Below the pieces are notes generated by a model that was given only the letters and a program-made list of their open reading frames with translations, was not told where the DNA came from and ran no database searches. From Acetomicrobium thermoterrenum DSM 13490 (GTDB lineage Bacteria; Synergistota; Synergistia; Synergistales; Acetomicrobiaceae), in NCBI RefSeq assembly GCF_900107215.1, contig NZ_FNPD01000001.1, positions 124,001-188,000 on the forward strand: DNA of 64,000 bases, in the 5' to 3' direction. The translations under genes were made by a program, and so were the position numbers. Of this stretch, positions 3,641 to 36,197 are shown one piece after another. Numbering within the stretch: position 1 is the first letter of the stretch; each line of letters begins with the position of its first letter.

Positions 3641-5401
3641 TTGGTGCAAAAAAACGTAACAAAGCGCAGAAGGCGTTCGCCGGACGAGCGCAAAGGCGCT
3701 TCTTTGAAGTTTATTCCCCTGGGAGGTGTCGGGGGAATAGGAAAGAATATTAGTGTCCTGGAATATGGCGACGATATCCTGGTAATCGATTGCGGGCTTA
3801 TGTTTCCAGACGAGGAGATGTTGGGTGTCGATTTCGTGATACCCGACCCGGCCTACCTTTTGGCCAACAAGGAAAGGATAAGGGGGATGGTAATCACCCA
3901 CGGACATGATGACCACATAGGGGCTTTACCCTACATCCTCCCGGAGCTGGACTGCCCTATTTACGCTACCAGGCTCACTCTGGGGCTTATAAGAAGCAGG
4001 ATGGAAGAGAGGGCTCCAAAATACGAGCTTAAGGCTAAGGAAATCCAGGCGGGAGACGTGATCGATCTAGGCTGTTTCAAGGTTCAGCCCTTCAGCGTAT
4101 GCCATTCCATTCCTGACGGCGTAGGCTACGCTATACACACTCCCTTGGGTGTTGTGCTTCATACAGGGGATTTCAAGCTCGACCCAACCCCAATAGACGG
4201 AAGGGCGACGGATTATGCCCTGCTTGCATCCCTAGGTACGAAGGGCGTGCTTTTAATGCTGTCGGATTCTACAAACGTGGAGCGCGACGGCTTCACCCCT
4301 TCGGAGCGAATGGTGGGAAAAACGATGGAGCAGACTTTCAGGCTTTACAAGAACAAGCGAATCATCATCTCTTCCTTTGCCAGCAATCTCCACAGGGTTC
4401 AGCAGGTCATAGAGACTGCGGTCAGGTTTAACCGAAAGGTGGCCCTAATAGGAAGGAGCATGATAGCGAACGTCGCCAGGGCGAGGGAATTGGGATATAT
4501 GGGCGTCGACGATGACGTGTTCATCCAGCCCTCGGAGATCGAAGGCTTTCCCAACAACAGGTTAGTGGTCATAACGACGGGAAGCCAGGGAGAGCCCTTT
4601 TCGGGGCTGGTGCTCATGAGCCGCGGAGACCACAGGTTCATCAAGCTAGGACCTAAGGACCTGGTGGTCATAAGCGCTCTCCCCATTCCGGGAAACGAGA
4701 GGCTCGTCCACCGAACGATAAACGATCTCTTCAAACAAGGATGCGAGGTTATATACGAGGCGGAACAGAATATACACGTCTCGGGGCATGCCTCTCGTGA
4801 AGAGCTTAAGATGATGCTGAGCCTTATAAAGCCCTCCTATTTCGTTCCCCTTCACGGCGAATACAGGCATCTCGTGAAGCACAAGCAGCTTGCCGAGGAG
4901 ATGGGGGTGCCCGCCAAAAATGCCTTCGTCATGGAGGAAGGAGATGTATTAAGCATCACAAAAAGGCAGGCCAGAATCTCGGGCAAAGTCCCGGCCGGGG
5001 CCTACATTGTGGACGGTCGCACCTACGGAGATATGAAGGGGGGGCTCCTTGGCGAGAGAAAGGGCTTGGCCGAAGAGGGAGTATTTTGCATATCGGTGGT
5101 GCTGGATTCGTCGGGCAACGTAATCGCTCCACTTTCAATTGAAAGCAGGGGTTTTCTGCATCGCGTCGATGCTGATGAACTTTACCGCCAGATAGAAGAT
5201 GCCGTGGAAAAGGCCGTGAAAGCTTTCGCCCGCGAAAAACGCGAAAGAAAGGATGAGGACCTGGCCTCTCGCATCAGAAGTGCGATAAAGGGCGTGTTGA
5301 GAAGATATTCCCTTTCTTCTCCCGTGATATTAGTCTTGATCAACGAAGTGAAGGAAAATGCAATTTTGTCGGGGCTTGCCGGAAGGGAGTATGCTAAATG
5401 A
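3641..5401 (+). CDS. rnj: Ribonuclease J
   Basis: RNase J is a cytoplasmic metallo-beta-lactamase/beta-CASP ribonuclease with 5'-3' exo- and endonuclease activity in RNA decay and maturation. Visible motifs are the zinc-binding HGHDDHIG (about residue 87), the SDSTNVERDGFTPSE beta-CASP segment, SGHAS and PLHGEYRHL. The start is TTG 3641 or GTG 3644, because GGAGG lies at 3628-3632. An upstream in-frame ATG at 3593 falls inside a hairpin and lacks a ribosome site. The product is about 586 residues with a basic N-terminus (KRRRRS). It overlaps uppP by ATGA. Confidence 0.93.
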   Translation: MVQKNVTKRRRRSPDERKGASLKFIPLGGVGGIGKNISVLEYGDDILVIDCGLMFPDEEMLGVDFVIPDPAYLLANKERIRGMVITHGHDDHIGALPYILPELDCPIYATRLTLGLIRSRMEERAPKYELKAKEIQAGDVIDLGCFKVQPFSVCHSIPDGVGYAIHTPLGVVLHTGDFKLDPTPIDGRATDYALLASLGTKGVLLMLSDSTNVERDGFTPSERMVGKTMEQTFRLYKNKRIIISSFASNLHRVQQVIETAVRFNRKVALIGRSMIANVARARELGYMGVDDDVFIQPSEIEGFPNNRLVVITTGSQGEPFSGLVLMSRGDHRFIKLGPKDLVVISALPIPGNERLVHRTINDLFKQGCEVIYEAEQNIHVSGHASREELKMMLSLIKPSYFVPLHGEYRHLVKHKQLAEEMGVPAKNAFVMEEGDVLSITKRQARISGKVPAGAYIVDGRTYGDMKGGLLGERKGLAEEGVFCISVVLDSSGNVIAPLSIESRGFLHRVDADELYRQIEDAVEKAVKAFAREKRERKDEDLASRIRSAIKGVLRRYSLSSPVILVLINEVKENAILSGLAGREYAK

Positions 5402-6192
5402 GCGCCCTTCATTCATTAGTCCTCGCTGTGCTTCAGGGCGTCACGGAGTTTTTGCCCGTCAGCAGCTCGGGACATCTGGCCCTGGCGCAGTACCTGTTCG
5501 GCCTTGAGGAACTACCTATCGTCTTTGATGTCTATCTTCATTTTGCTACTATGATGGCAACGATTGTCTATTTCTTTTTTGACATTGTCGGGCTTTTGAA
5601 AGAATGGATCCTGGGCTTGTTTTTCAGGGAACGAAGAAAAAGCGCGGGCTGGATATACGGTTGGGCAGTAATACTGGGAAGTTTCCTTACGGCCGTCGTT
5701 GCTTTCTCCCTGGAAGATGTGGCCACGAAGGCCTTTGGTCTTCCCCTGGCGGTATCCTGCGGGTTGGTTGTGACGGCCTCTCTTTTGAGGTGGGCCGGCC
5801 GCATTCCGGCGGGAAACAGAGAGGTAAGCCTATGGACGGGGCTTGCGGCGGGGCTTGCCCAGGGGCTGGCCGTAATGCCCGGGATTTCGCGGTCGGGAAG
5901 CACCATAGCAGCTTCTTTAATGACGGGCGCGAAAAGAGAGGAAGCTTTCAGGTTTTCCTTTTTGCTGTCTCTTCCCGCCATAATGGGAGCTACTTTCCTT
6001 GAAGGAATGAAGGCGTCTAAAATGGGAACCTCTCTTCCCGACGGTTGGCTTTTAGCCTGTACTGTGGCCTTTTTTTGCGGACTTTTGTCGCTTCATTTAA
6101 TGAAAAAAGTCGTGATATTCGGAAGGTGGAAATATTTTGCTCTCTACTGTCTTTTCGTTGCGGCTTTAGGGTTTGTGATCGGCATTATTTAG
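5398..6192 (+). CDS. uppP: Undecaprenyl-diphosphatase UppP (BacA)
   Basis: UppP is an integral membrane phosphatase that converts undecaprenyl diphosphate to undecaprenyl phosphate, recycling the lipid carrier for peptidoglycan and glycan assembly and conferring some bacitracin tolerance. The 264-residue protein has about eight hydrophobic segments and both family signatures: QGVTEFLPVSSSGHL near residue 14 and MPGISRSGSTIAAS near residue 160. It starts at ATG 5398 overlapping the rnj stop by four bases, so translation is probably coupled. It would supply carrier lipid for the glycan cluster downstream. Confidence 0.95.
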   Translation: MSALHSLVLAVLQGVTEFLPVSSSGHLALAQYLFGLEELPIVFDVYLHFATMMATIVYFFFDIVGLLKEWILGLFFRERRKSAGWIYGWAVILGSFLTAVVAFSLEDVATKAFGLPLAVSCGLVVTASLLRWAGRIPAGNREVSLWTGLAAGLAQGLAVMPGISRSGSTIAASLMTGAKREEAFRFSFLLSLPAIMGATFLEGMKASKMGTSLPDGWLLACTVAFFCGLLSLHLMKKVVIFGRWKYFALYCLFVAALGFVIGII

Positions 6193-6224: not shown

Positions 6225-6827
6225 ATGGATCGATCGGTGCCGATAGTGTTGTCTTCGAACAGCCCAAGAAGAAGGAGCTTGCTGAGCGATCTTTTGGGCT
6301 GGAATGTTTTGTTCATATCTCCAGACGTGGAGGAGAATGTCGGTGATTTTAATTCTCCCTCTCAGGCCGTAGAGCTTTTGGCCGAAAAGAAGGCCCTCTT
6401 TGGAGCAAATCTTTATCCAGAGCGTTACGTCATAGGTGCCGATACCCTGGTCTATATGGAGGGACGTATCCTGGGTAAACCCACCTCCAAAAAAGAGGCC
6501 CTGGACATGCTTTCCCTCCTCAACGGCTCTACGCATGAGGTCTATACTGGAGTGGCCGTAGCAAAAGCCGACAGGATAATTTTCGATCATGAGGTCACAA
6601 AGGTTACCTTCAGAAGGATGGACATAAAAGCCCTTTTGGCCTATCTCGACACCGAGGAAGGCATGGATAAAGCTGGCGCTTACGGAATTCAGGGCAAGGG
6701 TGCATTACTGGTGGAAAGGATCGAAGGATGTTATTTTAACGTGGTAGGCCTGCCGCTCGCTACTTTATCTAAGGTTTTGGAGCGCATGGGTTGGCCCCTC
6801 GAGGCCCAGTGGAGGTGTGTCAAGTGA
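6225..6827 (+). CDS. maf: Maf family nucleoside triphosphate pyrophosphatase
   Basis: Maf proteins hydrolyse dTTP/UTP or modified nucleotides to monophosphates as house-cleaning enzymes, and were once called septum-formation inhibitors. The 200-residue product begins with LSSNSPRRRSLL (substrate loop), then GADTLVYMEGRILGKP with the catalytic Asp, KEALDMLSLLNGSTHEVYTG, and the C-terminal KAGAYGIQGKG motif. The start is ATG 6225 behind GGAAGGAGAG; the frame is open further upstream but without a ribosome site. The stop overlaps the next gene by GTGA. Confidence 0.92.
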   Translation: MDRSVPIVLSSNSPRRRSLLSDLLGWNVLFISPDVEENVGDFNSPSQAVELLAEKKALFGANLYPERYVIGADTLVYMEGRILGKPTSKKEALDMLSLLNGSTHEVYTGVAVAKADRIIFDHEVTKVTFRRMDIKALLAYLDTEEGMDKAGAYGIQGKGALLVERIEGCYFNVVGLPLATLSKVLERMGWPLEAQWRCVK

Positions 6828-8743
6828 GTTCTTTTTTAAGGAAGCTTTCTTTCATCCTGCTTTTGTGCGCTGTTGTCGCGGGAATATTGGGCTTGCAATA
6901 CAGGTTCAGGGAAGAAATGGCAAAAAAGGACGTCGCCCTGCTCATGGAATACTCCGATGTGGAGATTATGGCCCGGCAGACGGGACTTGACTTTGAGGAT
7001 ATGCTGGATCGACTGCTCGAAAGGGGGATTTCGGCCATATCCTTTAAAGATTTGACGGGAGCGGACCTGCGGGACGGCGATTCCCCCTTTTTGTGGGGCA
7101 CGTTAAGGGATATCTTGCCTCAAAAGAGGTTCAACGGCCTGTCGGGAAAGGCGGCCCTTTTCGTCCCTCTGGAATACGACGATTGGTTTTTCAGAAAGTA
7201 TTTGCACGCTCGCTTTCCCGGCTGCAAAGTTTATGATGCACCGGGGGGGAGAGTTTATGTCCTCCAGGGGGAGCCAAAGGAGTTTTTGGAAGTGGGCGTA
7301 GTGCCGGACCCGGAGGCAATGAAGCGTCTTGCCCGACTGGATGTCCCCCTGGTTTACAGGCCCTCTCCCACCTTCGGCATAGCTTCGGAAAATGTGGCCT
7401 CGTCCCTTGACCTGCTCTTTGCCTCCCTTTGGAGGCTAAGGGGTGTCTTGCCCCAGGGAACGGTGGTCTTCGGATATCCCGATACGACTGCCGTCGTAGA
7501 AGTAATGAGACGATACGATGCCCTATTGTTGCAGCCGGAGTTCGTCCGTCAAATTGGGGGCAACACCTTAAGTTGGCAATCCTTTCCCAACATACTTCCC
7601 CTTCACAGCGTAACTACGCAGGAGGTAATAACAAGAAACCTCTCCCGTCCCGTCCTGGTGGAGCGCTTTGCCAGGGCCGCAAGGGAGCGTTCCGTGAGGG
7701 TTTTGTTGCTCAGGCCCTACGATATCGCCTCCGCCCCCTGGATTGACAGTTTCGAGGAAGATTTGCTCTCTCTGAAAGGTTTACTCCAAAGGGACGGCTT
7801 TGAGATAAAACTTGGGGAACCTTACGGCAGCTGGCAGCGAAACATGTGGTCTGTGATCGCTTTTTTGGCTGCCAATCTGCTCGTCTTCGCCCTTTTGACG
7901 TCTATGGCCGAAGAGCACTTTAAATCAAAAGGATTTTTTTTGAAAGCAGCCGCCATCATAGCAGTGCTTGCCCTTGGAGCAAATTACGCGAGCTTTCTTG
8001 CCAGGATAATGGGCGCCATGCTCGCTGCCTTTGGCGCTTCCGTCGCAACCGTAGCGGCTCTCGAGGACAAAAAGCCCTTTTACGGGTTGCTTAAGGGTAT
8101 GGCGCTTGTCCTTGCCGTAGGCCTTGCCCTTTCGTCATTTTTCGGGACACCTCATTATATGCTTCGCCTGCTGACCTTTTCGGGGGTCAAGGCGACGCTT
8201 GCCCTTCCGCCGATTTTTGTTTTGCTTTACGATATGACCAAGCGGCGCTATCCGGAAAGCCCGATAAATGTATTGAAACGGCCGCCCCTATGGGGGGAGC
8301 TTTTGCTGCTTCTTTTTCTTATTGCCGCAGCTGCTGTGTTATTAATAAGAAGCGGAAACGTCTCCTTCGTGCCAAAGTGGGAGGTGGCTTTGAGGGATGC
8401 CTTCGAACGTTACCTGGTGGCTCGGCCGAGAAACAAGGAGATATTCGTCGGCTATCCGGCCCTTTGGCTGGCCCTGCTTATTGGTGTCATGAAGTCGAAG
8501 TATTCCCTTACGAGGTTTGGACATCAGATTCACCTCTTGCTTAGGATGGCTTCTTCCCTTGCTTTCGCCTCGGCCGTAAACAGCTTTTGCCATTTTCACA
8601 CGAGGATATATTTCATCTGTTGGAGGGTGTTCAACGGCCTTTGGGTGGGGTCCCTTTTTGGGCTTGTTGTCATAGGAGTCTTTCTTTTGGCCCTAAGGAT
8701 CAAGGCCATCAGGAGGTTATTTTTTGGTGGCGAAGGTATATGA
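6824..8743 (+). CDS. DUF5693 family membrane protein
   Basis: The 639-residue protein has an N-terminal membrane anchor (about residues 8-26), an extracytoplasmic domain of some 320 residues (MEYSDVEIMARQTGLDFEDM and following), then a C-terminal half with about nine hydrophobic segments. This is the layout of the DUF5693 family, which in many Firmicutes and Synergistota lies directly before csaB, as here. Function is unproven; from context a role in export or modification of a cell-wall polymer is likely. The start is GTG 6824 (GTGA overlap with maf) after GGAGGTG; an ATG at 6791 lies inside maf and lacks a good site. Confidence 0.8.
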   Translation: MSSFLRKLSFILLLCAVVAGILGLQYRFREEMAKKDVALLMEYSDVEIMARQTGLDFEDMLDRLLERGISAISFKDLTGADLRDGDSPFLWGTLRDILPQKRFNGLSGKAALFVPLEYDDWFFRKYLHARFPGCKVYDAPGGRVYVLQGEPKEFLEVGVVPDPEAMKRLARLDVPLVYRPSPTFGIASENVASSLDLLFASLWRLRGVLPQGTVVFGYPDTTAVVEVMRRYDALLLQPEFVRQIGGNTLSWQSFPNILPLHSVTTQEVITRNLSRPVLVERFARAARERSVRVLLLRPYDIASAPWIDSFEEDLLSLKGLLQRDGFEIKLGEPYGSWQRNMWSVIAFLAANLLVFALLTSMAEEHFKSKGFFLKAAAIIAVLALGANYASFLARIMGAMLAAFGASVATVAALEDKKPFYGLLKGMALVLAVGLALSSFFGTPHYMLRLLTFSGVKATLALPPIFVLLYDMTKRRYPESPINVLKRPPLWGELLLLLFLIAAAAVLLIRSGNVSFVPKWEVALRDAFERYLVARPRNKEIFVGYPALWLALLIGVMKSKYSLTRFGHQIHLLLRMASSLAFASAVNSFCHFHTRIYFICWRVFNGLWVGSLFGLVVIGVFLLALRIKAIRRLFFGGEGI

Positions 8744-9773
8744 CGTAGTGCTTAGCGGATACTACGGTTTCGGTAATATGGGCGATGAACTCATTTGCCG
8801 AGCATTGATAGAAATGGCCCTCAAGGCGGGAATTGACAAGTCCCGCCTCTGTGTGCTCTCCGCAAATCCTAAGGAGACGTCCGAGAAATTTGATGTTGCC
8901 GCCGTTAATAGGTGGAACCTCTTTGAGGTGTTTCGTGCCTTAAGGCAGAGCAGGAGCCTGCTTCTCGGTGGAGGCGGGCTCTTTCAGGATTCTACGAGCC
9001 TTAGGTCCTCTTTTTACTACTGGGGTGTGGTCTTTCTTGCCCGAATGGCCGGAGCTCGTCCCTGGGCTTTCGGACAGTCCGTAGGGCCCTTCCGTTCTAA
9101 ATTGGCGGCAAAACTCGCAAGAAACGCCTTAAAACATTGTAGCCCCAGGTACGTCAGGGACGATAATTCGGCAGCGCTCCTTTCATCCTGGGGACTTGAA
9201 TTTTTTTTGGCGCCCGATGCCGTGTTCGCACTTTCTTTTAAAGAAGCCGTAAAAACCTCGGCCAGGGACGTTTTAGTTTTCAACGTGAGGCCCTTGCCTC
9301 AGAGAGAGGGAGGGGTAAAATTGCTGGTGCGGGAAGCGGAGCGATTTGCTAAAATGCAAGGATATAAGCTTAGGGTGGTGTGCATGGCCGAGGAAGATCT
9401 GGAGGAGTTGAAGGCTTCAGGCGTTAGCCCCGATTGCGAGGTTTTTTTGCTCAAAAAGGCCGGCGACGTAGAGCCTGCCTTTGAGGGAGCGGCAAAGGCA
9501 GTAGGGATGAGGTTGCATTTTTGCCTTCTTGCCCTGCTGAAAGGCATTCCCCTGGTCGCTTTTCCCTACGATCCGAAGGTAAGGTCCTTCGCCCTTACCT
9601 GGAATATCCCCCTTTGGGAGAGAGGCGAAAGATTTGACTCCCTATTTTTGGAGGCACGGCCGGCCGAAGGGCAAAGGGTTGCCGAGGCGAGAGAAGTGTT
9701 GCGGAAAAGTTTCAATTCGGCTTTAAAGATTGCGTTGGGAGATGAGGAGCATTGGAACGTGAACAACAGCTGA
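8724..9773 (+). CDS. csaB: Polysaccharide pyruvyl transferase CsaB
   Basis: CsaB adds a ketal pyruvate from phosphoenolpyruvate to a cell-wall polysaccharide, creating the ligand that S-layer homology (SLH) domains bind. The 349-residue protein shows the family pattern: SGYYGFGNMGDEL near the N-terminus, LLLGGGGLFQD, WAFGQSVGP, YVRDDNS and a late GMRLHFCLLALLKGIPLVAFPYDPK. TTG 8724 or GTG 8727 follow AGGAGG at 8711-8716. It overlaps the DUF5693 gene by 20 bases. The SLH porin at 28.1 kb is the expected beneficiary. Confidence 0.9.
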   Translation: MVAKVYDVVLSGYYGFGNMGDELICRALIEMALKAGIDKSRLCVLSANPKETSEKFDVAAVNRWNLFEVFRALRQSRSLLLGGGGLFQDSTSLRSSFYYWGVVFLARMAGARPWAFGQSVGPFRSKLAAKLARNALKHCSPRYVRDDNSAALLSSWGLEFFLAPDAVFALSFKEAVKTSARDVLVFNVRPLPQREGGVKLLVREAERFAKMQGYKLRVVCMAEEDLEELKASGVSPDCEVFLLKKAGDVEPAFEGAAKAVGMRLHFCLLALLKGIPLVAFPYDPKVRSFALTWNIPLWERGERFDSLFLEARPAEGQRVAEAREVLRKSFNSALKIALGDEEHWNVNNS

Positions 9774-10606
9774 AGCTGCGCCGTATAGCCCTGGATATAA
9801 GAAAGGACGTATTGCGCATGATATCCATGGCCGACTCGGGCCATTTGGGATCGGCCTTTTCCTGCGTGGACATTTTGGTTTATCTGTATTTTTATCTTAT
9901 GAATATAAACCCTGATGAGCCCGGATGGCGGGAGAGGGACAGGTTCGTCTTGAGCAAGGGGCAGGCCTGTCCCAGCCTTTATGCCGTATTGGCCAGAAGG
10001 GGGTATTTCGAGAGACAGGAGCTTTGGAACTACAGGAGATTGGGATCGTTGCTGCAGGGCCACCCCGCGTACATGACTGCCCTTGGAATTGACGCGCCGT
10101 CGGGATCTTTGGGCATGGGGATCGGGATATCCTGCGGAATGGCCCTTGCTTTGAGAAAAACTTCGCCCCAGAGCAGGATTTACTGCCTGGTAGGAGACGG
10201 CGAGCTTCAGGAGGGCTCCTGTTGGGAGGCTTTGATGACGGCTTCCCACTGGAAGCTTGATAACCTTTATGTGATCGTTGATCGAAACGGCCTTCAAATG
10301 GAAGGAAGGACGGAAGAGATAAAGGCCCTGGAACCTCTTATAGAGAAGTTCCAGGCCTTCGGATTTTTCTGCAGCGAGACCTGCGGCCATGATTATCCTT
10401 CCATCGATAGGGCCTTCGCCGAGGCATCGGACAGCAGGGGAATGCCTAAAGCCATAATCGCCCGCACCAAGTGGGGAAGGGGCGTTACTTTGGCAGAAAG
10501 AGGGGATATTCCCGTAAAGGCCAGCCTCACCAGAAACGACGTAACCTTGTTGCTCGACGAGCTCAACAAGGAGTCGGTCTCTTTGGACGGGGAGGAGCGA
10601 TCATAA
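9752..10606 (+). CDS. Transketolase, N-terminal (TPP-binding) subunit
   Basis: This is half of a split transketolase, which moves two-carbon units between sugar phosphates in the pentose phosphate pathway using thiamine diphosphate. The 284-residue protein has SGHLGSAFSCVDILVYLYF, KGQACPSLYAVLARRGYF, and the TPP/Mg motif GDGELQEGSCWEALM with DRNGLQ downstream. The start is uncertain: TTG 9752 keeps a 22-base overlap with csaB but its GAGGAG site is very close. Its stop TAA shares one base with the ATG of the second subunit, so the two are made together. Confidence 0.92.
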   Translation: MEREQQLKLRRIALDIRKDVLRMISMADSGHLGSAFSCVDILVYLYFYLMNINPDEPGWRERDRFVLSKGQACPSLYAVLARRGYFERQELWNYRRLGSLLQGHPAYMTALGIDAPSGSLGMGIGISCGMALALRKTSPQSRIYCLVGDGELQEGSCWEALMTASHWKLDNLYVIVDRNGLQMEGRTEEIKALEPLIEKFQAFGFFCSETCGHDYPSIDRAFAEASDSRGMPKAIIARTKWGRGVTLAERGDIPVKASLTRNDVTLLLDELNKESVSLDGEERS

Positions 10607-11547
10607 TGGAGAGAAGAAGCACACGCGAAGCGCTTAAAGATGCCTTGCCTGAGCTTGCCGGGCTCGACGAAGGCGTTGTGGTGATTGATGCCGATGTCGC
10701 TTCCTCCACTTACACCAAGACCTTTGCGGAGGAATTTCCCGACCGATATTACAGCGTGGGCATAGCGGAACAAAACATGGTGGAAGTCGCAAGCGGCATG
10801 GCTCTGGCGGGAATGAAGCCCTACGCCGTCGCCTTCTCTTCTTTTTTGGCCGGGAGGGCCTATGATCAGATAAGGTGCTGCGTCGCCATGCCCGATTTGA
10901 ACGTAAAACTCATAGCCACCCATGCTGGCATCACCGTGGGGGAGGACGGCGGGACCCATCAGATGCTCGAGGATTTGGCTTTGATGAGAGCCCTTCCCAA
11001 CATGACGGTAATGGTACCGGCCGATTACTGGTCGGCTCGCGATTTGATAGTCTCTTCCTTCAAATACGATAAACCTCTCTACATCAGGCTGGGGCGCATG
11101 GACGTTCCTATTTTTTATTCGCCCAAGGAGGAATTTAAGCCGGGCGGGGGAAAGATCGTCAGGGAAGGCAGGGACGTCACCGTCATCGCCTGTGGTATTA
11201 TGTTGTTTGAGGCCTTGAAGGCAGCCGAGATACTTGCCCGTCAGGGCATAGAGGCCGAGGTGATAGATTGCTATAGCGTTAAACCTTTGCCGGAAGACCT
11301 CATTCAGTCCTCGGTAAGAAGGACGGGGTGTTGTGTCGTTGCCGAGGAGCATAATCAGGTAGGAGGCCTTTACGGCGCTGTAGCGGAAAGCCTCGGAATA
11401 AATTATCCTGTTCCCCTGAGGTTCGTCGCCATAAGGGATCGCTTTGGAGAAAGCGGGGCGCCTGCGGAACTTCAGGAGTACTATTCCCTAACCCATAGGG
11501 AGATAGTTGGGGCTGTCGCTCAAGTCTGGGCAACCAGAAGGCGGTGA
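10606..11547 (+). CDS. Transketolase, C-terminal (pyrimidine-binding) subunit
   Basis: This partner of the preceding gene carries the pyrimidine-binding and C-terminal transketolase domains. Motifs include DADVASSTYTKTF, YYSVGIAEQNMVEVASGMAL (with the glutamate that activates the thiamine ring) and a C-terminal domain with DCYSVKPLP and EEHNQVGGLYGAVAE. ATG 10606 follows GGAGGAG at 10591-10597; the frame is open upstream into the first subunit, but no better start exists. The 313-residue length is normal for the split form. A DXP-synthase-like role is less likely because the N-terminal half is short. Confidence 0.92.
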   Translation: MERRSTREALKDALPELAGLDEGVVVIDADVASSTYTKTFAEEFPDRYYSVGIAEQNMVEVASGMALAGMKPYAVAFSSFLAGRAYDQIRCCVAMPDLNVKLIATHAGITVGEDGGTHQMLEDLALMRALPNMTVMVPADYWSARDLIVSSFKYDKPLYIRLGRMDVPIFYSPKEEFKPGGGKIVREGRDVTVIACGIMLFEALKAAEILARQGIEAEVIDCYSVKPLPEDLIQSSVRRTGCCVVAEEHNQVGGLYGAVAESLGINYPVPLRFVAIRDRFGESGAPAELQEYYSLTHREIVGAVAQVWATRRR

Positions 11548-11551
11548 TAGA

Positions 11552-12247
11552 ATGGACATAAGGATGGCCGGTGTGACGAAGATCTTTCACCCCGACATAG
11601 TAGCTTTGGAGGACGTGTATCTCAACGTAAAAAGGGGCGAATTCGTCTATTTCGTCGGGCACACCGGTTCGGGAAAGACCACGCTTCTGCGTATGTTAAA
11701 CAGGGAGCTTTCTCCTTCGTCGGGGCAAATCATTGTCGGAAAGTACAACTTGAGGAAGATGAGATTGGGACAGCTTCCCTTTTACAGGAGACAGGTCGGT
11801 GTGGTCTTTCAGGATTTCAAGCTTTTGCCCCATCTCAATGCAGCTGAAAACGTGGCCTTTGTCTTGGAGGCCATAGGCATGCCCGGAAGGCAGGTCGCAG
11901 AGAGGGTCAAGGCCATATTGACCAGGCTGGATCTTTGGAAGAGGCGTTTTTTGTATCCCGAGCAGATGTCGGGAGGAGAACAGCAGAGGTTGGCAATAGC
12001 CAGAGCTGTGGTGAACATGCCCTCGCTTTTGATAGCCGACGAGCCCACGGGAAATCTCGATATGGAGACGGCCGAGTCGATAATGGACATCCTTTTTTCG
12101 ATAAATGCCTCGGGGACGACCGTGCTGATGGCAACCCACAATCAATATGTTGTCGACGCCTTCAGGGCGAGGGTGATCCGGTTGAGCGGGGGGCGAATCG
12201 TAAGCGACGAGCCGAGAGGAGAGGTGGAGCTCTATGGCGACCTTTAA
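11552..12247 (+). CDS. ftsE: Cell division ATP-binding protein FtsE
   Basis: FtsE is the ABC ATPase of the FtsEX complex, which couples cytoplasmic ATP hydrolysis to control of peptidoglycan hydrolases at the division septum. The 231-residue protein has Walker A GHTGSGKTTLL (about residues 36-46), Q-loop VGVVFQDFKLLP, signature SGGEQQRLAIARA, Walker B LLIADEPTGNLD and the switch histidine in MATHNQ. It starts at ATG 11552, four bases after the transketolase stop, and overlaps ftsX by 14 bases. Confidence 0.95.
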   Translation: MDIRMAGVTKIFHPDIVALEDVYLNVKRGEFVYFVGHTGSGKTTLLRMLNRELSPSSGQIIVGKYNLRKMRLGQLPFYRRQVGVVFQDFKLLPHLNAAENVAFVLEAIGMPGRQVAERVKAILTRLDLWKRRFLYPEQMSGGEQQRLAIARAVVNMPSLLIADEPTGNLDMETAESIMDILFSINASGTTVLMATHNQYVVDAFRARVIRLSGGRIVSDEPRGEVELYGDL

Positions 12248-13118
12248 GTATATAATAAGAGACACGATGAGGTTGCTGACGCGCCATTTTGGCGTCGTTC
12301 TACTGACGCTCGTTACGGTGGTGGCGGTCTTTTTAGCCGTGGGGATGAGCATCCTGCTTTCCGTAAATGTGGCGTCCCTCGCCTCTCAGATCGAAAGCGA
12401 CCTCACCGTAGAGGCCTATCTCAAGGATCAGGAAGCGAGGTCGGCGGTCCTTGAAAAATTGAAAAACATGCCCGAAATCAAAGAGGTGCGCTACATATCT
12501 CCCGAAGAGGCCTTGAAGCGCCTGGACGCCAAGATTGGCCAGGGAGAACAGATAATATCTCTTTTAGGCGACAACCCCCTTCCACCGAGCGTCATCGCAA
12601 CGGTGGACAGGGCAGAGAACCTGTCCACCGTTGCGCGAGAGATAGAGGCCTTCCCCGAGGTGGAAGACGTAATATACGCAGGAGAGGTAGCGGAGCGGCT
12701 GGCTTCACTGGCTTATTTTTTAAACAGGTTCGCCATGGCCGTGTTCTTCGTGGCGCTGCTTACGAGCCTCGTTATCATGATGAACACCATCAGGATTGCC
12801 CTCTACTCCAGGCGAGAGGAGATAGGCGTCATGCTTTTGGTGGGTGCCACTCCAAGCTACGTATCACTTCCCTTTCTCCTGCAGGGCGTCATATTGGGGG
12901 GAGTTGGAGCGTTGATAGCCCTTTTTTTACTGCTCAGGGCCTACAGATGGCTAGTAGATGTTTTGTCAAAGGTATTGCCCTTTTTTACCATGCTCGATTC
13001 GCCCGAGATATCTCTTTGGCTTTTTTGTCTCCTTGTAGGCGGTGGGGTGGCGCTTGGGTGGCTGTGCAGCTGGACGGCTGTGTATAAATATGTCCGCAGG
13101 GCTTTAAAACCGAGATGA
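12234..13118 (+). CDS. ftsX: Cell division protein FtsX
   Basis: FtsX is the membrane partner of FtsE and relays its state to an extracytoplasmic hydrolase or hydrolase activator. The 294-residue protein has one N-terminal membrane segment (about residues 21-45), an extracytoplasmic domain (EAYLKDQEARSAVLEKLKNM onwards) and three C-terminal membrane segments with the FtsX-type EEIGVMLLVGATPSYV loop. The 14-base overlap with ftsE indicates coupled translation. The next gene encodes a coiled-coil M23 protein, the usual FtsX partner. Confidence 0.95.
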   Translation: MATFKYIIRDTMRLLTRHFGVVLLTLVTVVAVFLAVGMSILLSVNVASLASQIESDLTVEAYLKDQEARSAVLEKLKNMPEIKEVRYISPEEALKRLDAKIGQGEQIISLLGDNPLPPSVIATVDRAENLSTVAREIEAFPEVEDVIYAGEVAERLASLAYFLNRFAMAVFFVALLTSLVIMMNTIRIALYSRREEIGVMLLVGATPSYVSLPFLLQGVILGGVGALIALFLLLRAYRWLVDVLSKVLPFFTMLDSPEISLWLFCLLVGGGVALGWLCSWTAVYKYVRRALKPR

Positions 13119-13140
13119 GGAAAATTAGGAGGTGAGGGCG

Positions 13141-14331
13141 GTGAATTTTGGGAGAAAGAAACTCCCTGTTTGGTTCGTCTTTATTTTCGCCCTTTTTTTG
13201 GGCACCCTGGCTTTGACCGGTCCCTCTTTCGCCGATGATCTCGATGCCCGAATAAATCAGGAACAGCAAAAGCTCGAATACATACAGAAAAAGATCGAAC
13301 AACACAAAAAGGAAGCAGCTTCCTACGCGAAAAAGGAAAAAAGCCTCCTCGCGGAGCTTGAGGAGATAAATCAAAAGGAGGAGGTGGCCAGGCAGAAGAT
13401 AAAGGTCTTGGAGCTGAAGGAAAGAAAGCTCAACGAAAGAATAAAGGAATTAAGCAAAAAGATCGAGGAAGAAGAGGCGCTTCTGGCCAGGGCGAAAAAG
13501 GCTTTGAGCAGTCGCGTGGTTAGCCTTTATAAGTTCGGTTCGGTGAGCCAGTATAAGCTGCTTTTCTCGGCAAGAAACGTGCAGGAAGCCATGAGCATGA
13601 GCTATCTTCTTGGAAGAGTCGCAAAGGCCGACAGCGAACTTATAGGCGAAGTCAGGGAAAGGAAACGTTCCCTCGAGGAATCCAAGGCTGAGCTTCAAAG
13701 GCAAAAACAGGACCTTTTGGCCAACAAGAAGGACCTTGAGTCGGAGAGAAAAAAACTGCTTCAGGCGCAAAGCCAACAGAAAAAACTTATTTCGGACATA
13801 AGGCAGCAAAAGAGCCTTCACGAGAAGGCCACTGCCGAGCTTGCAGCTTCCCAAAGGGAGCTTCAGGAAAAGATAAAATCCCTCATCGCTGAAAAAAGGC
13901 GAAGGGCAGCAGCTTCGAGCGGCCGAACTATACTAGTCGCGCCGAAGGGCAAACTGCTCTGGCCGGTAGGGGGGAGCATAAACGACAGATACGGGACTCG
14001 GGTCCATCCTGTTTTCAAGACGAAGACGGTGCATACGGGGATTGACATCGGCGCTGCTCACGGCACGCCCGTGAAGGCCGCGGCTAGGGGAGAAGTCCTC
14101 TTTACGGGTTGGCTTAAAGGTTACGGACAGGTTATAATACTTGATCACGGCGGCGATATGACTACTGTTTACGCCCATCTTTCCGCCATAAATGTGAGGG
14201 AAGGGCAGGTCGTAAACCAGGGCGCCATAATAGGAAGGGTGGGAAATACCGGCGTAGCCACCGGCCCGCATCTTCACTTCGAGGTTCGCATAAACGCCAA
14301 TGCAGTTGATCCTCTTAGATATTTGCCATGA
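13141..14331 (+). CDS. EnvC-like coiled-coil M23 (LytM) peptidase
   Basis: The 396-residue protein has a signal peptide ending near SFADD (about residue 32), a long coiled coil (about 34-255), and a C-terminal LytM/M23 domain. Unlike E. coli EnvC, which is a degenerate activator, the zinc ligands are intact: HTGID (H298, D302) and HLHFE (H377, H379). It may therefore cut peptidoglycan cross-bridges itself, under control of FtsEX encoded just upstream. The start is GTG 13141, 8 bases after AGGAGG 13127-13132; GTG 13132 overlaps the ribosome site. Confidence 0.9.
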   Translation: MNFGRKKLPVWFVFIFALFLGTLALTGPSFADDLDARINQEQQKLEYIQKKIEQHKKEAASYAKKEKSLLAELEEINQKEEVARQKIKVLELKERKLNERIKELSKKIEEEEALLARAKKALSSRVVSLYKFGSVSQYKLLFSARNVQEAMSMSYLLGRVAKADSELIGEVRERKRSLEESKAELQRQKQDLLANKKDLESERKKLLQAQSQQKKLISDIRQQKSLHEKATAELAASQRELQEKIKSLIAEKRRRAAASSGRTILVAPKGKLLWPVGGSINDRYGTRVHPVFKTKTVHTGIDIGAAHGTPVKAAARGEVLFTGWLKGYGQVIILDHGGDMTTVYAHLSAINVREGQVVNQGAIIGRVGNTGVATGPHLHFEVRINANAVDPLRYLP

Positions 14332-15573: not shown

Positions 15574-16521
15574 ATGAACTTTTCAAAAAAACACCTTTGG
15601 ACGATAATGCTTTTCGTCATGGCGATCGGGCTGGGATTGATCTTTGCGGCCACCAGAAAAGATGTGCCATCGAAAGACCTCCGGGCAGCAATCGTCAGGG
15701 CAGAGGTAAGTGACAACTTATCTTCTGCTAGCGGTGAAAAAGTAACCATAGATCCAAATACAGCAGAGGATGGACATCTCCCAGAAAGGGGAGAGGAAAA
15801 ACAGGCCTTGACTGAGGAATTCCCAAAGGCGAAATCTTTGAAGGGTGCCTATCTTGCTATAGTCGTCGATGATTTAGGTTTTTCCTATGCCAGGGCTGAG
15901 GAGCTTGCCGGACTGAAGATTCCCCTGACTTGGGCAATAATACCCTTCCAGAGGAGCAGCAAAGCTACGGCAGAGTTGGCGAGAAACAAGGGCATCCCCT
16001 TTCTCGTACACGTCCCTATGCAGGCTTTCGGGGACATGGAAAGCCAAAAGCATCTTGTAGCACTTTCCATGGATGACGAAACGATAAGAAGAAACGTAAG
16101 GGAGGCCTTAAAGTCCCTCCCGGGCGCCATCGGCGTGAACAACCACAGGGGCTCTGCGGCGACTTCCGACATGAGGGCGATGAGAGCTCTCATGGAAGAG
16201 CTGAGACAGGATAACATGATATTTTTGGACAGCAGGACGGCTGCCTCCTCCGTAGCAGCTATCGAGGCGAGAAAGGCGGGCATTTTTGCCTTGGAAAACG
16301 GAGCCTTCATCGACCACTTGGAGGACATTAAGTTCATGTGGTCCCAGCTTGAGCGTGCGGCGGGTCAGGCGCAGAGGCGGGGTTACGCCGTCGCCATATG
16401 CCACGCCCGCCCCGTCACATTGACTTTTTTAAATCAACTGGACTCGAATCCCGACATAGGTGTAAAATTAGTGACCGTCGACGAACTCGTTCGTATTTTA
16501 TCCAAATCTCACGGCAATTAA
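15574..16521 (+). CDS. Divergent polysaccharide deacetylase (YibQ family)
   Basis: The 315-residue protein has an N-terminal membrane anchor or signal (about residues 8-26), a low-complexity linker to about residue 85, and a divergent NodB-like barrel: LAIVVDDLGFSYARAEEL, FLVHVPMQAF, GVNNHRGSAATSD, FLDSRTAASSVA, ICHARPVTL. The DD and H residues of the metal site appear retained. E. coli yibQ also neighbours envC, which supports a link to division-site peptidoglycan or glycan trimming; the substrate is unknown. It starts three bases after the ctpA stop. Confidence 0.85.
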   Translation: MNFSKKHLWTIMLFVMAIGLGLIFAATRKDVPSKDLRAAIVRAEVSDNLSSASGEKVTIDPNTAEDGHLPERGEEKQALTEEFPKAKSLKGAYLAIVVDDLGFSYARAEELAGLKIPLTWAIIPFQRSSKATAELARNKGIPFLVHVPMQAFGDMESQKHLVALSMDDETIRRNVREALKSLPGAIGVNNHRGSAATSDMRAMRALMEELRQDNMIFLDSRTAASSVAAIEARKAGIFALENGAFIDHLEDIKFMWSQLERAAGQAQRRGYAVAICHARPVTLTFLNQLDSNPDIGVKLVTVDELVRILSKSHGN

Positions 16522-28103: not shown

Positions 28104-29648
28104 ATGAAGAAGTTATTAGCTTTAGTAGCTGTATTTGCCCTTGTGGCATTTGCGGCTCCAGCATTTGCGGCCAATCCCTTCGTCGACGTTCCCATGAACC
28201 ACTGGGCTTACGACGCCATATCTCAGCTGGCCGCAAAGGGGATAATTCAGGGTTATCCCGATGGCACCTACAGGGGCAACCAGCCCATGACGAGGTATGA
28301 GATGTCCATGCTCGTTGCCAGGGCTCTTGCTACTATCGACATGGATAAGGCCAGCAAAGAAGACGTCGAGATGTTGAAGAAACTCGTCGTAGAGTTCAAG
28401 GACGAGCTTGATGCCTTAGGCGTAAGGGTAGATGCCCTTGACGAGCGCGTAGCTGTCCTCGAAGAAGGTGTCGGAGGATGGAGGTTCTGGGGCGAACTGC
28501 GCTTCGACGCCCGCTGGGCCGATGAAAGCGATGGTGCATACGACCAGGGATACTACACCCACAGGGGTGAGACCGAGTTCGATCTGAGCAGGTTCCGTCT
28601 CTGGATGAGCAAGCAGATCGACGACAAGACGACCTTTACCGCGCGTCTTGGCCGCAGCGGATCCAGCGGCGTGAACTGGGATCGTTACTACGCAACGATT
28701 CAGATGCCCTGGGATTCCTCGTTGATGGTTGGTAAGTGGCTCTACGACTGGGAAGGCGAAGCAGGCCTGTACATCGACGAGGATGCGTGGTTTACAGACC
28801 AAGTGTTAACCGGCTTCTACTGGAGGAAGAACCTGGCAAAGGGCGACATTACCTTCTTTGCCACCCACGATGAAAATGATGGTGTAGATTTAGAGGGCAA
28901 ACCCTTTGTTGCAGGCCAAGATAGATATAACTACGGCGCGCGCTTCAACTTCAATGTGAACGACAAGTTCCGTTTCGCCTTAAGCGGTCTGTATTTCGAC
29001 TACGATAACGACGGTACTGTGCAGGATGTCGATGCAACAGGCACTTGGGGTACAGATATATCCTATTATGACTACGGCGTTTACTGGGCAGATTTCGGCA
29101 TCACCTTCACTCCGGGATTTCAATTCAAGGGCGCTTACTTCATGCAAGATCACGATGGGCCCAATATTGCTGGCGTCACATTCGACGATTCGCCTAACGC
29201 CTACAAGGCCATCATCGATGTGTCTCAGGACACCTTGAAGTTTACAAGCCTCTGGCTCGAGTATGCCAAGCTAGATCCCAACTTCCACACTGCTTTGCAA
29301 CCGTGGAGCGCTTACGGTGCCGAGGTTACGCCGGCCTTGATGGAGTCTCCTGTGAATAACGTGTTCGAGACCGAGGTAATTTTTGCATATTTGCAGCAGA
29401 AGTGGAGCGATAAGTGGGCAACGTATCAGCGCTACGGTCAGTTTGAGCATGATCCTGAAGGCTATGCTGGGTTGGCCGGCAGCTTTGATATCACCAACTG
29501 GACCTTTGGCGTTCAGTACTGGTACACCCCGACCGTCATGTTTGAACTTGCTTACGACGACGTTGATTACGACAGAGGATGGACTGAACTTGACGGGGAC
29601 CTTAAAGACGACAGCTTGATCCGCTTCCGCACTCAGATATTCTTCTAA
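28104..29648 (+). CDS. SLH-domain outer-membrane porin (OmpM-like)
   Basis: The 514-residue protein has a signal peptide (MKKLLALVAVFALVAF..., cleavage near residue 22), one SLH domain (about 25-75: FVDVPMNHWAYDAISQLAAKG, YPDGTYRGNQPMTRYEMSM), a short coiled coil (about 85-118), and a long aromatic/Asp-rich beta-barrel ending in the C-terminal phenylalanine typical of outer-membrane proteins. OmpM-type proteins of Negativicutes and Synergistota tether the outer membrane to the cell wall through the SLH domain and act as porins. CsaB in this window would make the pyruvylated ligand. It has a strong terminator of its own, indicating a monocistronic, probably abundant mRNA. Confidence 0.92.
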   Translation: MKKLLALVAVFALVAFAAPAFAANPFVDVPMNHWAYDAISQLAAKGIIQGYPDGTYRGNQPMTRYEMSMLVARALATIDMDKASKEDVEMLKKLVVEFKDELDALGVRVDALDERVAVLEEGVGGWRFWGELRFDARWADESDGAYDQGYYTHRGETEFDLSRFRLWMSKQIDDKTTFTARLGRSGSSGVNWDRYYATIQMPWDSSLMVGKWLYDWEGEAGLYIDEDAWFTDQVLTGFYWRKNLAKGDITFFATHDENDGVDLEGKPFVAGQDRYNYGARFNFNVNDKFRFALSGLYFDYDNDGTVQDVDATGTWGTDISYYDYGVYWADFGITFTPGFQFKGAYFMQDHDGPNIAGVTFDDSPNAYKAIIDVSQDTLKFTSLWLEYAKLDPNFHTALQPWSAYGAEVTPALMESPVNNVFETEVIFAYLQQKWSDKWATYQRYGQFEHDPEGYAGLAGSFDITNWTFGVQYWYTPTVMFELAYDDVDYDRGWTELDGDLKDDSLIRFRTQIFF

Positions 29649-29707: not shown

Positions 29708-29780
29708 CTCACGACGTGAGCTATAATTTTTCACGTGTCCATTCTTTTAAAGAAAATTTGTGCTTTGCGGAGGTATTGGA

Positions 29781-30539
29781 ATGAATAAAAGGATTCGTTT
29801 TTTTGGAAGTATATTGCTGGCATTTTCTGTGCTCCTTCTTTGTGAGATCGCATCTTTTGCCGCTGATTTCGACTCAATCCTTCAAAAGTGGAGCAGGACC
29901 TATACGACTCGCGGGGAGCTGGGAGATGAGCTCACCATAGTCGCTACCTACTATTCGGCCGAGTACATCGAAGCCTTGGTACAACGTGAAGCGGATAAAA
30001 ACCTCTGGACCGAAAGCGAGGTCGAAAACTACAAATACGAGCTGCTAAAAGCCCTGCAGCTTGAGGAGTACATCCCGATAATGCTTTCCTTCGACATGAA
30101 GGGCGCACCCTTGAGGATGGCTCCCTTCGATAATAAAGCAATTTTGTGGGTGGGAGGCCAGAAATTATCTCCTGCCGACTACGACAAGAGATTTAATTTC
30201 AAGCTCTCGGGCAAGCGCGAGGGGCTCGTATATTTTCCCCGCTACGACGAAAGCGGCAAATCCTATCTTGAAGGAGTTTCCACCCTGAGGCTTACGATAG
30301 ACGGAAATATAGGTCCCATAACCATGGGAAAACAGATAGATTTCTTCTGGGACGTTTCCAAGGACGATCCTTCAAAGCTCTACGAGGGCCGCGCTGCTTC
30401 GCGCCTGGAGCTCGAGAGGCTGATCAGGCGGTTGAACCAGCTGAAGGAGCAAAAAAGCAAGCTCGAGGAGCAGATAGCGGGCATAGAAAAGGAAATCGAT
30501 ATGGTCGAAGAGCGAATCGAAGAGCTTGAAAAGGAGTAG
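29781..30539 (+). CDS. Secreted protein with C-terminal coiled coil, unknown function
   Basis: The 252-residue product has a signal peptide (MNKRIRFFGSILLAFSVLLL..., cleavage near SFAAD, residue 28), a globular part with repeated aromatic/acidic segments (IVATYYSAEYIEALV, RMAPFDNKAILWVGGQKL, LTIDGNIGPITMGKQIDFFW) and a coiled coil of heptads over the last 45 residues (RLNQLKEQKSKLEEQIAGI...). I do not recognise the family. It is probably periplasmic or outer-membrane-associated. ATG 29781 lies 6 bases after GGAGGT; a TATAAT box at 29722-29727 may be its -10. pfkA follows after 5 bases. Confidence 0.7.
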   Translation: MNKRIRFFGSILLAFSVLLLCEIASFAADFDSILQKWSRTYTTRGELGDELTIVATYYSAEYIEALVQREADKNLWTESEVENYKYELLKALQLEEYIPIMLSFDMKGAPLRMAPFDNKAILWVGGQKLSPADYDKRFNFKLSGKREGLVYFPRYDESGKSYLEGVSTLRLTIDGNIGPITMGKQIDFFWDVSKDDPSKLYEGRAASRLELERLIRRLNQLKEQKSKLEEQIAGIEKEIDMVEERIEELEKE

Positions 30540-34199: not shown

Positions 34200-35414
34200 A
34201 TGCTAAGGAGTGAGTCGATAATCATGCTACATGAGTTAAGGGCAAAAGACAAGGGTATTCGAGCGATAGCTCGAGAAACGGGCCGTTCGAGGAATACTGT
34301 GAGAAAGTACTTAAAGGCTGGTGGGATCCCAGAGAGGAAGCCGCATCGCAGGCGCAGTTCTAAGCTCGACCAATATAAGAAAACTGTAGGAGAGCTAATG
34401 GATCAAGGCGTATTCAACTGCGAAGTCATCTACGAAAGGATAAAGGCAGAAGGATATGCCGGCGGACGCACGATATTGCGGGATTACGTAAGGGATTTTA
34501 GGCCACCCAGGCAAACGCCTGCCGTGCGCCGATACGAGACGAAACCTGGAGAGCAAGCACAAGCAGACTGGGGGGAATATACGTACATCGACGAAGTAAG
34601 CGGCGAGGTGAGAAAGCTGTACCTTTTCGTGATGGTCTTGGGATACTCGAGGGCCATATACACGGAATTTGCCAACCGCTGCAATGCCAATGCCTTTAAC
34701 CGCTGTCTTATTCATGCCTTTGAATACTTCGGCGGTGTTACAGACGTACTGCTTACAGACAGGATGAAGACCGTGATCTTAGGCATAGGAGATGACAGAA
34801 AGCCTATATGGAATGCAAACTTTTCTGACCTGGCGGCAACGTTAGGGTTTACTCCAAAGGTATGTAGGCCCTATCGTCCCCAGACAAAGGGTAAAGTTGA
34901 ACGAGGCATCGAGTTCGTGAAGGGGAACTTCTTAGCAGGTAGGCGCTTTTCGGACTACGGCGACTTGAACCGGCAGGCTCTAAGCTGGTGTGATGAAAAA
35001 AACAGACGAATACATGGAACTTTGGGCGAAAGGCCCATCGACAGGTTGAAGGAAGAAAACCTAAGGCCTCTTCCTACTTTCAATAAATACCACAGGTTCT
35101 TGACGGAGGTGAGGAAGGTCCAAAGAGATGCACTCGTAAGTTACGACGGAGTGAGGTATGGCGTTCCATGGCAGTATAGCGGACACGAGGTCATGGTAAG
35201 AGAATTAAGCGGCACGATAGAGATCCTTTGCGACGAGAAAGTAATAGCTTCACATCAAAAGCGCTACACCTCAAGGAGCACGTGCTACCTTGAAGGCCAG
35301 TATCAGGGGATAAAGGAAGCAGAAGGACGCCTCTATCCCAAACCTAGGGCGACGAAGCTTGCGTCTTTGGAAGTCCAAAGGCGATCGCTTGTAGTTTACG
35401 ACGTCCTATCCTGA
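34200..35414 (+). CDS. istA: IS21-family transposase IstA
   Basis: IstA cuts and joins the IS ends. The 404-residue protein has an N-terminal helix-turn-helix (GIRAIARETGRSRNTVRKYL), then a DDE integrase core: QADWGEY (first Asp), LLTDRMKTV (second Asp) and KGKVERGIEF (Glu), followed by the basic C-terminal domain. No frameshift or stop is seen, and length fits the family. ATG 34200 is 50 bases inside the left inverted repeat. It precedes istB by 12 bases. Confidence 0.96.
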   Translation: MLRSESIIMLHELRAKDKGIRAIARETGRSRNTVRKYLKAGGIPERKPHRRRSSKLDQYKKTVGELMDQGVFNCEVIYERIKAEGYAGGRTILRDYVRDFRPPRQTPAVRRYETKPGEQAQADWGEYTYIDEVSGEVRKLYLFVMVLGYSRAIYTEFANRCNANAFNRCLIHAFEYFGGVTDVLLTDRMKTVILGIGDDRKPIWNANFSDLAATLGFTPKVCRPYRPQTKGKVERGIEFVKGNFLAGRRFSDYGDLNRQALSWCDEKNRRIHGTLGERPIDRLKEENLRPLPTFNKYHRFLTEVRKVQRDALVSYDGVRYGVPWQYSGHEVMVRELSGTIEILCDEKVIASHQKRYTSRSTCYLEGQYQGIKEAEGRLYPKPRATKLASLEVQRRSLVVYDVLS

Positions 35415-35426
35415 GGTGAATACGAA

Positions 35427-36197
35427 ATGATAGAGCTTGAAATGACAAAAACTAACTTGGAAAGCTTAGGATTGACTGCCGCTGCCAAATACCTTGACGC
35501 CTTCTTGGAGAGGGCACAAGGCGAAAACTACACCTATCTATCGTTCTTAAATGAGCTGCTCGAGGCGGAGGTAGCGGAGCGACAGAGGAGAAACATAGAG
35601 GTGCGCTCTAAGTTATCTAGACTGCCGCATAAGAAGACCTTGCAGGAATTCGACTTTAATTTCCAGCCAGGTGTAGACGAAAAACTCGTCAAGGAGCTTG
35701 CCACCATGGCCTTCGCCTACAGAGCTGAAAACGTGGTGCTTTTAGGCCCTCCCGGCGTAGGCAAAACGCACCTCGCTGTCGGCCTTTCAATGGAAGCGCT
35801 CTCTCGTGGTATCTCGGTGTACTTCACCACCCTTATGAGGATGGTAGAAGACCTAAAAAGGGCATACGAAAATCAATCTTTAATGAGGCGGATGAAGGTA
35901 TATTCATCTCCAAAGCTGCTCGTGATAGATGAAGTGGGATACTTGCCTTTGGATAGCCTTGGTTCAAGCTTGTTTTTCCAGCTTATAAGCGCACGTTACG
36001 AAAGGGGGAGCATAATACTGACCAGCAACAAGGGATTCGGTGAATGGGGAGAGCTGCTGGGCGATCCGGTACTAGCGACAGCAGTGTTGGACAGGCTATT
36101 ACATCATGCCCATATCATTAACATCAGGGGAAACAGTTACCGTCTGAAGGACAGAGCGAAGACGGGGCTGTATAAAAACCCCCAAGCCAATGTTTAG
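35427..36197 (+). CDS. istB: IS21-family ATPase helper IstB
   Basis: IstB is a DnaC-like AAA+ ATPase that assembles on target DNA and stimulates IstA. The 256-residue protein has Walker A LLGPPGVGKTHLA, Walker B KLLVIDEVGYLP, sensor ILTSNKGFGEW and the C-terminal HIINIRGNSYRLKDR segment typical of IstB. It is intact, starting at ATG 35427 after GAGGTGAA, and ends 12 bases before the right inverted repeat. Confidence 0.96.
   Translation: MIELEMTKTNLESLGLTAAAKYLDAFLERAQGENYTYLSFLNELLEAEVAERQRRNIEVRSKLSRLPHKKTLQEFDFNFQPGVDEKLVKELATMAFAYRAENVVLLGPPGVGKTHLAVGLSMEALSRGISVYFTTLMRMVEDLKRAYENQSLMRRMKVYSSPKLLVIDEVGYLPLDSLGSSLFFQLISARYERGSIILTSNKGFGEWGELLGDPVLATAVLDRLLHHAHIINIRGNSYRLKDRAKTGLYKNPQANV

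Follow-up and report, generated by a model that had tools for sequence, protein, structure and literature searches.

Tethering of the outer membrane to the cell wall through a pyruvylated polymer has already been published for two diderm lineages, Thermus and Synechocystis, and is not in itself new (PMC6282519, PMC9163127). A CsaB-dependent tether involving SLH domains was described in Thermus thermophilus (Cava et al. 2004, as given in citing papers), and a csaB mutant is reported to have a looser outer envelope (PMC6282519); in Synechocystis, repression of slr0688 is likewise reported to loosen the outer envelope (PMC9163127). The polymerisation and ligation of such wall polymers have been described as an open question (PMC6030368). 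OmpM/SlpA-like proteins of Synergistetes have been published (PMC9388160), and no report of pyruvylation in this group was found in the parts of the literature covered by the search. Here, a 64,000-nucleotide stretch (hereafter the window) of the 1.97 Mb genome of Acetomicrobium, a member of the Synergistota, was analysed, which carries adjoining genes for a DUF5693 protein and the ketal-pyruvyl transferase CsaB, and further along a gene for an OmpM-type porin with one SLH domain. What is added to the known systems is this gene set in Synergistota, a strict pairing of DUF5693 with CsaB, and a prediction that DUF5693 works on the outer face of the inner membrane.

The best reading of the locus, held with moderate confidence, is that the outer membrane would be pinned to the wall by OmpM gripping a pyruvylated polymer. 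In the pathway that we infer, TagO, MnaA and TagA would build an undecaprenyl-diphosphate-linked precursor of N-acetylglucosamine and N-acetylmannosamine, and CsaB would place ketal pyruvate onto the N-acetylmannosamine of this lipid-linked precursor. On the outer side of the inner membrane DUF5693 would process this lipid-linked sugar, most likely as chain polymerase or ligase, and an LCP protein would join the chain to peptidoglycan. The SLH domain of OmpM would then bind the pyruvylated sugar and thereby pin the outer membrane to the wall.

The DUF5693-CsaB pair had been named in a first-pass annotation made from the sequence, and both identifications proved to lie far beyond chance (Table 1). 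The DUF5693 gene starts at GTG 6824 (alternative start TTG 6791), and its product, 96% identical to the counterpart in Acetomicrobium hydrogeniformans, is a full-length family member, as the PF18949 match spans residues 35-621 and profile positions 1-606 of 609. At E 1e-3 this was its sole Pfam match, with none in NCBIfam and so none to Wzy/WaaL PF04932. The csaB gene starts at TTG 8724 or at GTG 8727, preceded by AGGAGG, inside the 3' end of the DUF5693 gene (20-base overlap), and this overlap together with the AGGAGG suggests translational coupling of the two. The CsaB protein matches PF04230 (E 5.4e-31) and scores above the curated equivalog cut-off of TIGR03609. Its residues Y14, R145, R189, R263, H265 and K285 are invariant in 35/35 copies, F16 being present in the window copy but not invariant. 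The invariant residues are counterparts, matched by motif and without alignment to that protein, of the set reported as critical in CsaB of Paenibacillus alvei, namely Y14, R148, R207, R306/H308 and K328 (PMC10435577). CsaB probably pyruvylates a wall sugar. A second pyruvyl-transferase-like match was seen in the source genome at G000:C5:66532-67314, with 84.9 bits, far under the CsaB cut-off.

Table 1. Features of the window; functions are predicted.
Feature	Position	Strand	Basis and remarks
UppP/BacA undecaprenyl-diphosphatase	5398..6192	+	PF02673 E 5.9e-64; position kept in 8/8 genomes
Maf-like protein	6225..6827	+	Named by eye; position kept in 8/8 genomes
DUF5693 protein	6824..8743	+	PF18949 E 6.5e-108; model pLDDT 88.5, pTM 0.87; predicted topology
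CsaB ketal-pyruvyl transferase	8724..9773	+	TIGR03609 248.2 bits, cut-off 213.1
Transketolase N and C halves, two open reading frames, next in operon	9752..11547	+	Named by eye; position kept in 8/8 genomes
FtsE, FtsX, EnvC-like (cell-wall hydrolase control at division)	11552..14331	+	Named by eye
OmpM-type outer-membrane porin, one SLH domain, putative wall tether	28104..29648	+	PF00395 E 1.3e-13, residues 25-67; phmmer
SLH domain with HWAYDA and TRYE motifs	28176..28304	+	Within OmpM-type porin

The distribution of the three proteins was surveyed in 120 Synergistota genomes, the source genome included; beyond this phylum the survey comprised 14 controls, leaving out Negativicutes, Halanaerobiales and most Firmicutes. 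Of the 120 genomes, 118 have DUF5693 and likewise 118 have CsaB at E 1e-3, of which 85 exceeded the curated cut-off. Among the 117 genomes that hold both, csaB follows the DUF5693 gene directly in 116, and in the sole exception (G118) the matches are at the ends of separate contigs; such strict pairing within Synergistota is a new observation. SLH was detected in 99/120 genomes and all three together in 96/120. The SLH-negative genomes number 21 (20 by listing, the last, G115, by elimination), all of them in at least 30 contigs (contig counts being rounded), and all 19 genomes of at most 10 contigs are SLH-positive. Seven of the 21 gave OmpM matches, mostly broken pieces. The SLH gaps are read as mainly missing assembly sequence, which leaves the other 14, with no OmpM match, unaccounted for. 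Conversely, SLH without a DUF5693 or CsaB match was seen in three genomes (G003, G083, G100), all of at least 240 contigs.

Among the controls, DUF5693 matched in Thermus, Deinobacterium, Thermotoga and a Bacteroides, three of these four (reported as a count) being above the cut-off. The one weak, sub-threshold DUF5693 profile match that was inspected (L057) falls on the C-terminal membrane part of an RND pump, and by analogy the Bacteroides match may be read as such a pump match. A contig-wide scan for DUF5693 returned four loci, all from Acetomicrobium or Synergistaceae, and the cross-phylum survey gave no relative among viral contigs and none among plasmids. DUF5693 probably also occurs in Firmicutes.

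The remaining pathway families were counted in 61 Synergistota genomes (PF00953 in 31) and the same controls. The MnaA epimerase family PF02350 and the TagA/WecG family PF03808 are each present in 61/61 genomes, and the TagO/MraY family PF00953 in 31/31, with two copies in 26. TagO and MraY share this one Pfam family and were separated by neighbourhood: in 28 of the 31 genomes one PF00953 copy is directly followed by the PF02350 epimerase gene, and because of this adjoining gene that copy is taken as TagO-type. LCP (PF03816) was found in 61/61 genomes and, among the controls, in the four SLH diderms Synechococcus, Thermus, Deinobacterium and Thermotoga as well as in Bacillus subtilis, Corynebacterium and Lactococcus, with no match in the Escherichia coli, Caulobacter and Bacteroides controls. 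Of the new arguments for a wall polymer, this distribution is the most specific. The best equivalogs were the TarA model for the TagA domain and the TagU model for the LCP protein, both under the strict cut-offs. By family assignment, the genome thus holds candidates for the full route to a wall polymer (MnaA, TagO, TagA, CsaB and LCP).

In locus L076 (8902-10617, minus strand) and in the deep-branching genomes G002, G005 and G007, the TagA glycosyltransferase is fused to a preceding membrane domain exceeding 300 residues in length. This part has no significant Pfam match in L076 and scores as Glycos_transf_4 in the three genomes, and the whole looks like a drifted TagO-TagA fusion. Opposite this TagA gene, at L076:10528-11484 (plus strand), lies a gene for an LmeA-like phospholipid-binding protein.

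The same genes bear on a different destination for the pyruvate. CsaB might decorate lipopolysaccharide O-chains or capsule, with DUF5693 serving that polymer and OmpM gripping plain peptidoglycan; a glycosyltransferase cluster (recognised by eye) with a Wzy_C protein is indeed located between the operon and the OmpM gene. It is improbable that this is the arrangement, since CsaB stands with UppP, Maf, FtsE and FtsX in 8/8 genomes, outside the sugar cluster, and the LCP transferase is universal among the genomes counted. As for other tethers, an OmpA-domain search gave no match in the source genome, which speaks for the OmpM tether (Lpp and TolB were not searched for). The OmpA domain occurs in 47/61 genomes, as a single match in 40 of them; most of the frames measure about 240 residues and by their size would be MotB. 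More than one match was found in 7/47, four of which (G028, G031, G033, G042) have frames of 331-417 residues, making other OmpA-type tethers possible elsewhere in Synergistota. G017, of the same species as the source genome (G000), does have one (243-residue frame), so that its lack in G000 would reflect either MotB loss or an assembly gap.

The outer-membrane partner in the preferred tether is the OmpM-type porin, the single match in an SLH profile search of the whole genome at E 1e-3. By phmmer it matches OmpM1 of Veillonella parvula (8bys; E 4.6e-29, residues 2-189) and SlpA of Deinococcus (E 2.3e-18, residues 11-115). The first-pass annotation had called it an SLH protein with an outer-membrane beta-barrel; the SLH domain and the relation to OmpM1 are borne out, and the barrel is predicted from the OmpM1 match, which reaches only the barrel start, and from the final Phe, found in 18/18 complete Synergistota copies including that of the window. 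The gene does not adjoin the pair, lying about 19.5 kb from DUF5693. In a sample of 54 genomes, chosen by the authors (non-randomly) from the 118 with DUF5693 and drawn from related clades, so that no significance is claimed, OmpM and DUF5693 share one contig in at least 27, and in at least 15 of those they are 16-21 kb apart on the same strand. Three Acetomicrobium genomes have OmpM downstream, about 16-20 kb from the pair, and 12 genomes from other families have it upstream, at 18-21 kb, again on the same strand. OmpM is followed in the window by a gene for a protein of about 255 residues with no Pfam or NCBIfam match (29760-30539), then by PfkA and a D-glutamate-cyclase-like gene, an order repeated in 4/4 other genomes whose stretch covers OmpM.

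The ligand of this SLH domain was considered from its motifs, read in the 20 best-scoring loci, which represent 20 of the 99 genomes with SLH and include several near-identical ones. The Trp, the Gly and the Arg of TRxE are present in 20/20, the search pattern itself having required the Trp. In SpaA these residues contact the pyruvylated sugar, and they are also reported in the polyamine-type OmpM (PMC10628300). In addition, HW[AS]Y and TRYE, with the tyrosines Y36 and Y65, occur in 20/20. The first of these is shared with Veillonella OmpM1, its place being taken by Lys in Deinococcus SlpA and by Ile in Bacillus anthracis Sap. Silale et al. associate such tyrosines with polyamine binding; they report high conservation of Y36 in Negativicutes, for which polyaminated peptidoglycan is considered the ligand, but no conservation of it in the remaining diderm Terrabacteria outside Firmicutes (PMC10628300). 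OmpM of Synergistota might accordingly bind polyamine-modified peptidoglycan as in Negativicutes, with CsaB pyruvylating another envelope sugar. The tyrosines favour this arrangement; we nevertheless regard it as unlikely, given that the Trp, Gly and Arg contacting sugar and pyruvate are retained too and that the families of the TagO-TagA-CsaB-LCP route are present. The SLH residues by themselves do not discriminate between pyruvate and polyamine: either Synergistota use polyamine or Y36 is no guide to the ligand, and sequence cannot decide between these. Because Synergistota combine Y36 with CsaB, their tyrosines cast doubt on Y36 as a marker for a polyamine ligand. The tether first proposed for this locus is partly supported, by CsaB, OmpM and the linkage-unit and attachment families, and is weakened by SLH residues that would fit either ligand.

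A search on DUF5693 found no paper in the literature covered, and PF18949 is a family without an assigned function. The AlphaFold model, built from 31 Synergistota sequences, has one N-terminal membrane helix, a beta/alpha barrel (approximately residues 34-334) and about nine further membrane helices; the N-terminus would be inside and the barrel outside the inner membrane. The full-length model had no Foldseek match at E 1e-3 among PDB and viral models, and a sequence search for a relative of solved structure found none. With VIA, the barrel best matched 1v6t (Z 12.8, root-mean-square deviation 4.2, 195 aligned residues) and 2nly of DUF610 (Z 12.6, 3.8, 198 aligned), followed by dihydropteroate synthases (Z 11-11.6), that is, TIM-type barrels; these matches indicate the fold class, not the function. 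DUF610 is the divergent polysaccharide deacetylase family, and a gene for a deacetylase of that fold family (PF04748, window 15574-16521) is found further down the same operon. WaaL (7tpg) was tried as a fold relative of the membrane domain and was not counted, being at Foldseek rank 49 with E 3.6.

In the membrane part, with loop sides assigned by the authors from the predicted topology, conserved R/K/D/E/H/N residues make up 13/20 in outer loops and 2/25 in inner loops (Fisher p 8e-5). The conserved blocks are R509-S-x-N, E520-x3-R524-x9-RPRxKE and N586-x-F-C-H-x-H. At the C-ends of the barrel strands (strand ends as defined by the authors) 6/13 polar residues are conserved, against a background of 22/133 (p 0.008), with 0/15 at the N-ends, a difference that is suggestive. 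Because the conserved charged residues concentrate in the outer loops, DUF5693 would be an enzyme with its active face outside the inner membrane. On the model, it is a tentative candidate for polymerase or ligase of the wall-polymer chain. Such an enzyme would combine the outer (beta/alpha) barrel with an Arg/His-rich outer face and would fall outside the recognised glycosyltransferase families. More broadly, DUF5693 could be the missing extracytoplasmic polymerase or ligase that SLH diderms need for their pyruvylated wall polymers, acting as the partner of CsaB throughout Synergistota.

DUF5693 had originally been suggested to be an export or assembly factor, of which assembly fits the predicted architecture. 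As for export, a flippase or exporter of the pyruvylated precursor would agree with the approximately ten predicted membrane helices, with the conservation of 6/11 charged or polar residues inside them, and with the weak match to an RND pump noted above. The in-helix residues would suit a transporter, but such a role appears doubtful in view of the bias towards outer loops, and no transporter fold stood out when the membrane domain was searched with Foldseek and VIA. DUF5693 could also be a factor of lipid-carrier use in general or of peptidoglycan division, with no link to CsaB beyond the common operon, as its neighbours UppP, FtsE-FtsX and EnvC would suggest. Escherichia coli and B. subtilis have FtsEX and carrier recycling, but neither control gave a DUF5693 match and the family was found in only four controls, so that such a role has little probability.

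Several observations weigh against the proposed tether with DUF5693 as its polymerase or ligase, in addition to the SLH tyrosines, the in-helix residues and the 14 genomes without OmpM. As the whole operon order is kept in 8/8 genomes, the linkage of DUF5693 to CsaB is no stronger than its linkage to transketolase, and co-occurrence is weak evidence because such an operon would persist whether or not its products cooperate. Synechococcus, an SLH diderm control, has no DUF5693 match. Some of the families are partly unspecific: CsaB matched in 8/14 controls (4 above the cut-off), PF02350 in 11/14, PF00953 in 12/14 and PF03808 in 7/14, E. coli and Caulobacter among the last. Wzy_C proteins, present in 60/61 genomes, are alternative candidates for polymerising the chain. 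The membrane domain of DUF5693 taken alone had no Foldseek match at E 1e-3, and its best VIA match (Z 5.9) was unspecific.

The conserved order runs from UppP through Maf, DUF5693, CsaB and the transketolase halves to FtsE and FtsX, and is found in all eight genomes, the deep-branching G002 included. EnvC keeps its position in 7/8, the stretch of G028 stopping before it, and RNase J precedes the operon in 8/8, though in three of them it is set somewhat apart. The stop of the Maf-like gene and the DUF5693 start codon overlap by 4 bases. Elsewhere in the window (34200-36197), two open reading frames resemble, by eye, an IS21-type transposase and its ATPase helper.

Compared with the csaB systems of P. 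alvei and B. anthracis, the locus has in common MnaA, TagO, TagA, CsaB and a proposed ligation by LCP (PMC6801904, PMC6030368, PMC3545897). Those systems serve S-layers of monoderms, and WpaA/B are proposed there for polymerisation and ligation without evidence of activity in the text cited. OmpM of V. parvula resembles the porin described here in that SLH domain, stalk and porin start align and W34, Y36, G58 and TRYE are common to both, whereas the ligand proposed there is polyaminated peptidoglycan (PMC10628300). The Synechocystis tether of slr0688 and SLH porins is similar in that a pyruvylated wall polysaccharide, proposed in the present case, holds outer-membrane SLH proteins; the cyanobacterial system differs in that the Synechococcus elongatus control lacks DUF5693. 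Like Thermus, Acetomicrobium is a diderm with an SLH protein and CsaB, and the Thermus composti control matches DUF5693, SLH, TagA and LCP. Unlike Thermus, it belongs to another phylum and has as its SLH protein a porin of the OmpM type whose tyrosines resemble those of Negativicutes, and the system is predicted from genes. If the proposed tether is correct, DUF5693, a family without known function, would gain a place in it as a concrete candidate for polymerisation or ligation, and the tethering of the outer membrane through pyruvate, as in Thermus and cyanobacteria, would extend to a further diderm phylum.

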